Shown in pieces: positions 34,985 through 36,283 of a stretch of 40,983 nt of DNA. The DNA is from Bacilli bacterium. GTDB taxonomy: Bacteria; Bacillota_I; Bacilli_A; RF39; UBA660. The DNA is taken from NCBI GenBank assembly GCA_017432665.1, contig JAFRIS010000007.1, positions 1 through 40,983 on the forward strand, written 5' to 3'. Position numbers and translations under genes: made by a program. The notes below the pieces were generated by a model that was not told the DNA's origin, did not search any database, and worked only from the letters and a program-made list of their open reading frames with translations. Numbering within the stretch: the first letter of the stretch is position 1; every line of letters begins with the position of its first letter.

Positions 34985-36256
34985 ATGATAATAGATAAAG
35001 ATAACATAAAAATTCTTTTATTTATTTTAATACTGGGACTAGGTCTAGGATATGCTTATATTAATAGTGACTTAAATATTAATGGTACAGCTCAAATAAA
35101 TAGTGCTAACTGGGATGTACATTGGGCAAATATCCAGGTAAAAAATGGTAGTGTAAGTGCATCTACCCCAACGATAAGCAATCAGACTACGGTTAACTAT
35201 TCTGTAACATTAAATACACCAGGAGATTATTATGAATTTACTGTAGATGCAATTAACGGTGGTAATATAGATGCCATGATAGATACAATAGATTCTAAGT
35301 TGAATGGAGCGACTATTACTGTACTGCCAGATTATTTAAACTATATAGTAACATATAGTGATGGAGCAATATTACAACCAAACCATCAACTGTTACACAA
35401 TACAACCGAAAAATACAAGATCAGAATAGAATATAGAACTGATATAAGTGCTAGTCAATTACCTGCAACTAATCAAACATTAACATTACAGTTCACAGTA
35501 ACATATAGACAAGCAACAGAAGATGCAGTTGCAGTACCACATCCAGTATCATTTGCAGATGATTCATGGTCAACAATAGTAGCAGCAATACAATCAGGAA
35601 ATACAAGTAATTATGATGTAGGAGATACAAAGACAGTAGATATGGGAACATTAGGAACACATACTATAAGAATAGCAAACAAATCAACTCCATCTGAATG
35701 CTCTACAACAGGATTCTCACAAACAGCTTGTGGATTTGTGTTGGAATTTGCAGATGCAATCACAACACACAATATGAATTTTACAAATACAAATGTAGGA
35801 GGATGGCCAGCAAGTGAAATGAGAACATATGTAAATAGTGATATATATAATGCGTTACCATCCGAATTAAAAGACGGAATAATAAATACATCAGTAGTAT
35901 CAGGACATGGATCAACAAGTGGAGAGACAAATTTCACATCAACAGATAAACTATATTTATTATCAGGTCATGAGGTATGGCAAGATGTAGATGGAAATAC
36001 AAATAGTGGAATAGATTATTATGATACAACTTATAATAATACAAGACAATTAGATTATTATAGTTCCCAAAATGTAACAACAAGTAATTATGCAGGAGCA
36101 ATTAAGCGAAGAAACGGCTCAAATTCTTCTTGGTGGTTGCGCTGGGCCAATTACAATAGTACTAAATATTTCTTCATTGTTCAGTATTATGGAGATAATT
36201 TTAGCTACAATGCAAATTCTGCTGGAGGAGTTTCGCCAGCTTTCCGAATTGGATAA
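34985..36256 (+). CDS. Secreted DUF6273-type surface protein with variable-looking tail
   Basis: A 423-residue exported protein. An N-terminal hydrophobic helix (9-27) is followed by a beta domain (about 30-175, 'GTAQINSANWDVHWANIQV'). Then comes a DUF6273-like domain: 'VDMGTLGTHTIRIANKSTP', 'NTNVGGWPASEMRTYVNSDI', 'YNALPSELKDGI', 'STDKLYLLSGHEVW', and the closing block 'SWWLRWANYN' to 'GVSPAFRIG'. Codon choice is mosaic: the N-terminus resembles host genes, residues about 180-370 use mostly A-ending codons, and the last ~50 codons switch to C/T-ending ones. This suggests assembly from exchanged parts; see the separate entry for the 3' end. DUF6273 function is unknown. Confidence 0.8.
   Translation: MIIDKDNIKILLFILILGLGLGYAYINSDLNINGTAQINSANWDVHWANIQVKNGSVSASTPTISNQTTVNYSVTLNTPGDYYEFTVDAINGGNIDAMIDTIDSKLNGATITVLPDYLNYIVTYSDGAILQPNHQLLHNTTEKYKIRIEYRTDISASQLPATNQTLTLQFTVTYRQATEDAVAVPHPVSFADDSWSTIVAAIQSGNTSNYDVGDTKTVDMGTLGTHTIRIANKSTPSECSTTGFSQTACGFVLEFADAITTHNMNFTNTNVGGWPASEMRTYVNSDIYNALPSELKDGIINTSVVSGHGSTSGETNFTSTDKLYLLSGHEVWQDVDGNTNSGIDYYDTTYNNTRQLDYYSSQNVTTSNYAGAIKRRNGSNSSWWLRWANYNSTKYFFIVQYYGDNFSYNANSAGGVSPAFRIG
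36104..36253 (+). repeat. Candidate DGR variable repeat or exchanged cassette
   Basis: The final 50 codons of the DUF6273-type gene. In 36143-36217, 20 of 25 codons end in C or T, and many are of the kind reached from AAY by changing the first two bases (TAC, AGT, ACT, TAT, TTC, ATT, GTT, GAT, TTT, AGC). Preceding codons mostly end in A. The stretch is rich in Y, N, S, F and W and is flanked by constant SSWWLR and GVSPAFRIG blocks. No template repeat or reverse transcriptase is in the window, so the diversity-generating interpretation is a hypothesis. Confidence 0.4.
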
Positions 36257-36257
36257 A

Positions 36258-36283
36258 TAAGCAGAGCAATCTGCTTTTTTAAT
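36258..36283 (+). terminator. Hairpin after the variable tail, terminator
   Basis: AAGCAGA and TCTGCTT pair around GCAA, followed by a T run. It begins about 5 nt after the coding end. Confidence 0.85.

Follow-up and report, generated by a model that had tools for sequence, protein, structure and literature searches.

The gene at positions 34985 to 36256 of the window (the entire 40,983-nucleotide stretch of contig analyzed here) raises the question of whether its 3' end is a variable repeat (VR), that is, a segment rewritten by a diversity-generating retroelement (DGR), as a sequence-only reading had proposed. DGRs are among the few known means by which prokaryotes purposely mutate chosen genes. 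Our answer is that the gene very probably comes from a family of C-type-lectin-like proteins, anchored at the surface and encoded at dispersed loci, in which DGRs target the 3' ends of the genes; the VR of the window copy would be old or have been written from a different template. The family, the A-specific pairs of template repeat (TR) and VR in relatives, the core genes, and the single-template signature in three paralogues appear in the sequences themselves; mutagenic homing, action in trans, and a binding function are the presumed activities behind them.

A Lectin-Like Protein with a Biased 3' End

The gene and its parts are laid out as follows.

34985..36256, plus strand: target-family gene (423 amino acids) with an N-terminal membrane helix, a TasA-like beta stalk, and a C-terminal DUF6273 / C-type-lectin-like domain
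34997..35071, plus strand: N-terminal hydrophobic helix (residues 5-29) in the AF2 model, a putative signal anchor
35102..35542, plus strand: beta-sandwich stalk (residues 40-186), faintly similar to TasA fibre and pilin-like subunits
35774..36250, plus strand: PF19789 (DUF6273) domain, residues 264-422, from Pfam (E 5e-17) and the domain model
36137..36239, plus strand: VR region, TTGCGC ... CCAG, by homology (alignment with paralogues and with the real templates TR60, TR06, and the L214 TR)
36143-36226, plus strand: hypervariable core of the window VR
36227..36239, plus strand: presumed IMH-like 3' end, GGAGTTTCGCCAG, with a role suggested by BPP-1
36260..36275, plus strand: hairpin AGCAGA-GCAA-TCTGCT right after the stop codon, followed by a T run (sequence and fold)

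DUF6273 was the sole Pfam match in the protein. An AlphaFold2 model of the whole protein consisted of the N-terminal helix, the beta-sandwich stalk, and the C-terminal domain. In structure comparisons the stalk resembled TasA fibre and pilin-like subunits only weakly, at Z about 5-6, which such a widespread arrangement can give and which is no proof; the same stalk is found in paralogues whose C-terminal ends are of other kinds. Modeled alone, the C-terminal domain reached a pLDDT of 88.9 and a pTM of 0.89, and its best solved match was 9qa6, the DUF6273 domain of the Thomasclavelia ramosa IgA peptidase (Z 16.0), followed mostly by C-type lectins and related folds at Z 5-7. (A sequence-profile search of solved structures gave no match.) The domain is accordingly modeled as a C-type-lectin-like scaffold that holds the VR, the Z scores of 5-7 being weak by themselves. 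A C-type-lectin-like fold was likewise concluded for phage DUF6273 proteins (PMC10743442). The window protein is presumably displayed on the surface, where it would bind a ligand.

The sequence-only reading had started from codon usage, and its counts proved accurate. Exactly 20 of the 25 codons from 387 to 411 (36143-36217) end in C or T (Y), as compared with 18 in the best upstream 25-codon stretch of the gene and an upstream mean of 10.8, and A-ending codons drop from 104 of 187 (codons 187-373) to 11 of 50 after 36104, about where the switch had been placed. The SSWWLR and GVSPAFRIG blocks that it had reported at the C-terminus are both present, in a protein with an N-terminal hydrophobic helix. 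With the residues held fixed and the gene's own codon use, 16.7 Y-ending codons would be expected as against the 20 seen (P = 0.011), or 15.6 if codons 181-373 serve as the reference (P = 0.0004); the excess is modest because N, Y, F, and D residues force much of the Y-ending. Thus, the window by itself is suggestive, not convincing, and the convincing evidence sits in paralogues and relatives. A further argument, that most of these codons are derivable from AAT or AAC, carries no weight alone, being true of any NNY codon; five codons in the stretch (TGG, AAA, CAG, GGA, and GCA) are not NNY.

Three Paralogues Bear the Trace of One Template

The genome from which the window comes (G000; 1.19 Mb in 47 contigs, 71% complete) holds at least nine related copies of the lectin family: among 18 matches to the window protein, nine were at least 68% identical, and others were confined to the stalk. 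The 3' end is included in five of the nine, and a contig end truncates six. Genus-wide, the 3' end was found in 20 of 39 genomes, each time with a distinct variable stretch between WWLRSA and GVSPAFRIG.

Three copies in the window's own genome (C1a, C1b, and C27) were compared over their last 28 codons. Among the 20 codons at which the amino acid varies, 18 keep one third base; when C and T were shuffled within each copy in 5,000 trials, the mean was 5 and the maximum 13. Moreover, 28 of the 30 variable first and second positions have A in some copy. Between C1a and C1b, the 28 VR codons differ 12, 11, and 0 times at codon positions 1, 2, and 3, whereas the 130 codons upstream of the VR differ 9, 7, and 13 times. 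Pooled within genomes, differences per codon at the three positions were 0.49, 0.49, and 0.25 in the VR and 0.20, 0.16, and 0.31 upstream, and the third-base pattern is common to nine VRs from four species. As judged from these alignments, the pattern in C1a, C1b, and C27 is the mark left when a single AAY-rich template is copied again and again and the errors fall at A.

A template inferred from the three copies differs from C1a and from C1b at 20 of 39 A and 0 of 42 other positions in each case, figures that are partly circular since the template was derived from those very VRs; the third-base test is not circular. Cross-genus templates gave p values of only 0.003-0.05 against C1a, C1b, and C27, as the signal is drowned by silent divergence from one template lineage to another, and the within-genome third-base test was therefore used in their place. 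A template of the genome's own type would be about 105 bp long, noncoding, and AAY-rich, and would end in GTTTCGCCAG.

Templates and Writers in Relatives

In the mechanism that we propose, the core would consist of Avd, TR, and reverse transcriptase (RT); the RT would reverse-transcribe the template RNA and make its errors at A. The resulting cDNA would then take the place of a target's 3' end (the VR) as far as a conserved CCAG, whether the target adjoins the core or lies elsewhere, and a hairpin downstream of the VR would aid the replacement, as in BPP-1 (PMC3240598). Rewriting would alter surface residues of the lectin domain and hence, presumably, what the cell binds.

Relatives supply the parts. 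In UBA7476 (locus L214) the order is target, Avd-position gene, noncoding template, RT. Over residues 18-422 the target has 49% identity to the window protein, and template and target differ at 19 of 41 A and at none of 62 other bases (p 1e-9). The template carries GGGGTTTCGCCAG and then parts from the target sequence; here and in G006, a genome of the window's own genus, template homology stops at CCAG. The UBA7476 RT is truncated before YMDD. In G006 the end of a contig carries an Avd-position gene, a template, and a full-length RT. Its template differs from G060:C40, a gene of a third species, at 23 of 37 A and 0 of 68 other positions (p 7e-14), and from its own G006:C37 at 24 of 37 A and 4 of 68 others. 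G060 has a template of its own after a target, behind an Avd scrap; it differs from that of G006, and no RT was found in the G060 assembly.

Across the wider family, 34 of 385 genomes gave a match to the RT query (57-66% identity in seven), and the same core arrangement with DUF6273-type targets was seen in G382, G132, and G410. Within a 70-nt window, all 19 mismatches in G132 and all 13 in G410 fall at A. RTs of the DGR branch lie near the TR in G006, UBA7476 (truncated, without YMDD), G132, G410, and others. The RT has the motifs GVEIAQ and YMDD and falls within the DGR RTs of the tree, its closest company (support 0.99) being RTs from faecal phages and from Faecalibacterium phage Pioen. The Avd-position gene is conserved (180-190 amino acids) and flanks the TR; it had no Pfam, NCBIfam, or named PHROG match to Avd and is a candidate Avd by its position. 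With A-only TR/VR pairs and cores of Avd-position gene, template, and RT in genomes of the same genus and family, the proposal that a DGR is the kind of system at work is largely borne out.

The genus also has four further types of RT, group II intron and retron-like ones among them, which were set aside for want of the DGR motif G...xQ and a TR. Scans of IMG/VR with the G006-type RT, two template-like patterns, the conserved TR-RT spacer, and the start of the own-type template returned no relative and no exact match.

No Writer Found in the Window's Own Assembly

The sequence-only reading had placed the RT and the template elsewhere in the genome. Searches of the window's own assembly for an RT_1 match, a DGR-type RT, the Avd-position gene, a template, and the template-RT spacer all came back empty. 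The absence is not decisive: completeness is only 71%, and contigs break where members of the family lie. Writers are absent as well from most target-bearing assemblies, and no RT was found in G001, which is 96% complete and carries targets. Fragments of Avd occur at G018:C3 and G006:C2, and the start of one follows the G031:C128 target; such core relics in relatives indicate that cores are often lost.

Might the DGR be extinct in this species, its core lost and its VRs frozen or decaying relics? We give this somewhat less than an even chance. The missing core, the three Avd relics, the G060 template accompanied by an Avd scrap only, and the UBA7476 RT that lacks YMDD are all in keeping with extinction. 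Arguing for recent activity, on the other hand, is the complete absence of third-base differences between the VRs of C1a and C1b, on the scale of which writing was recent; and a 2-kb core would be lost at just those contig breaks where the family lies.

A more elaborate scheme, which we regard as unlikely, would have most species of the genus maintain a scattered set of targets, with the writer (Avd-TR-RT) an uncommon and possibly mobile cassette that is lost and gained anew time after time and rewrites targets in trans, those of other species included. Writing across species is suggested by the fit of the G006 template to the G060 gene with no non-A mismatch, even though the G060 assembly has only a different template and no RT.

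Was the Window Copy Written by a DGR?

Compared with the template inferred from its paralogues, the window VR differs at 19 of 39 A and also at 17 of 42 other positions, so that its changes are not confined to A, and it showed no significant A bias against four real templates of relatives (p 0.09-0.3). Its third bases differ from those of the other own-genome copies at 13-15 of 28 VR codons. What stands of the suggestion that this is a variable repeat in a DUF6273-type scaffold is the scaffold (from Pfam), the C-type-lectin-like fold (from the model), a family diversified from a template at the A of AAY codons, and DGR cores in genomes of the same genus and family; what is not supported is a clean DGR VR in the window copy. 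Indeed, this individual copy is not special and is the poorest example of the family.

In the placement of its VR, in its scaffold, and in its 3' boundary block the window copy agrees with proven VRs: the VR limits and the 3' block, GTTTCGCCAGCTTTCCGAATTGGATAA, are exactly as in C1b, and its scaffold is that of the written copies. The locus, with the same neighbors, is present in G028, G001, and L211 (synteny in sister species), and the G028 orthologue differs from the inferred template at 23 of 39 A and 3 of 42 other positions. A comparison of the syntenic locus in four species showed an excess of VR change at all three codon positions, which supports fast change of the VR but not A-specificity. 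We infer that the window copy was once written by a DGR, and the simplest reading is that it is an old VR, or one from another template, that now lies far from the template of its paralogues.

It is improbable, though well within consideration, that the window copy was never written, being an ordinary DUF6273 lectin under plain diversifying selection beside DGR-written paralogues. Such a gene would look much as this one does: none of the templates reveals an A bias in its VR, five codons are not NNY, the third positions are unlike those of the paralogues, and the residue composition largely accounts for the Y-ending. Against this are the boundaries and GTTTCGCCAGCTTTCCGAATTGGATAA block held in common with C1b, the near-clean template signature of the G028 orthologue at the same locus, and the break in codon use at the VR.

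Finally, the many copies per genome and the lack of writers in most assemblies that have targets might suggest that, with no RT involved, gene conversion between dispersed copies and silent cassettes made the paralogue VRs differ, but this is very improbable, since block shuffling would not fix third bases while nearly all first and second bases at A sites vary, nor give 0 of 62 and 0 of 68 non-A changes against a noncoding template beside an RT; as the sole cause, recombination among paralogues was rejected on the third-base test (18 of 20).

A Hairpin-Like Element behind Targets

A hairpin-like element with the motif CCGAAC-N-GTGAGG / CCGAAC-GNAA-GTGAGG lies behind one target in each of seven genomes (L040:9831-10030, which is C19 of the window's own genome, and L128, L214, L131, L136, L144, and L145). 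Its stems differ in sequence, and pairing holds in several loci. It had no Rfam match where tested; on five loci, Rfam returned nothing for the region after the target genes. In UBA7476, G018, G031, and G060 the element sits between the target and a core or core relic. In the window's own genome its neighbors are the C19 target on one side and an mscL-like gene on the other; it is absent at the counterpart locus of G028. The C19 element would be a remnant of a former cassette, and elements of this kind may be cassette leaders or target-recognition structures. A terminator-like hairpin directly follows the stop codon in all own copies except C19; the one behind the window gene (36260..36275) is probably a terminator and possibly also a post-VR hairpin of the sort described for BPP-1 (PMC3240598).

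The start of mscL is identical over 194 nt in two species (L132 1-194 and L040 10091-10284), the other flanks being about 82-88% identical.

Other DGRs

Several further DGRs were met in passing. A second type in the genus (L081 8600-11850, G018:C21) has a target that shares the stalk of the window protein and has another variable end, and its RT is split over two frames. A third type (L079 and L080; G002:C114 and G018:C25) has a target, very large or of 760 amino acids, that ends in a YYWLASP...GVRPAVSL domain, and a 498-amino-acid RT with a C-terminal match to MutS domain I. At L082 7400-9300 (G031:C7), a DGR RT frame with three in-frame TAG codons accompanies a TR/VR pair with A-only change; this is possibly a stop-recoded prophage. 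At L085 5115-5400 (G029:C14), a prophage-like tail protein has a TR/VR pair with A-only change, and the RT is of yet another branch (GSYFCQ, YMDD).

One contig of 7.7 kb (G382:C32) carries an exact 1923-nt direct repeat, containing a target and an Avd-position gene, at both ends (L303 83-2005 and 5708-7630), with a 576-amino-acid transposase-like ORF between the repeats. The arrangement could be a duplication, a circular element, or an assembly effect.

Implications and Comparison with Known Systems

A gut Bacilli genome of 1.2 Mb thus gives at least nine genes to one lectin scaffold, and writers and relics are scattered over its genus and family. Large DGR surveys depend on RT-adjacent targets, and remote ones are admittedly missed (PMC8144416). 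In such a setting, target families without a visible writer should be recognizable from the fixed third base of AAY-derived codons alone. The family offers a test case for the diversification of surface lectins in uncultured ruminant-gut bacteria and for DGR loss.

The nearest known systems are those of the Faecalibacterium phages Pioen and Roos (PMC11792537), whose RT is about 42% identical to that of G006 and its nearest neighbor in the tree, and whose target VR lies at a DUF6273 C-terminus; DUF6273 is the reported target domain in phages of the Pioen RT group (PMC11792537). In Pioen we computed an A-only TR/VR difference. The targets of these phages are of the tail type, however, one or two per phage, whereas the window family consists of an anchored cellular protein in many dispersed copies, with chromosomal cores. 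Tentaclins and other DUF6273 DGR targets of phages nd4 and nd12 (PMC10743442) similarly carry the VR on a surface hairpin of a C-type-lectin-like DUF6273 domain, but they are phage receptor-binding proteins and belong with another RT branch.

More distant is Bordetella phage BPP-1 (mtd/avd/TR/brt; PMC3240598), which has the order target, Avd, TR, RT, as in L214, and a hairpin after the VR, but a single tail-fibre target and a distantly related RT and Avd. Treponema denticola TvpA (2y3c) is a DGR variable protein with a C-type lectin fold; its match to our domain model (Z 6.5) is weak, and the likeness is a structural one.

A parallel in organization is found in cyanobacterial DGRs (PMC7517822), in which one DGR serves many dispersed lectin paralogues, some of them written in trans at their 3' ends. 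These differ in phylum and in their N-terminal domains, which are kinases and others rather than a surface stalk, and their writers are present, whereas those of the window family are mostly missing. Thus, DGRs, their use of DUF6273 lectins as targets, and, in cyanobacteria, lectin targets dispersed far from the writer (PMC7517822) were known already. What appears to be new, no description having been found in the part of the literature that we covered, is a cellular, multi-target lectin family in gut Bacilli with scattered, decaying writers.
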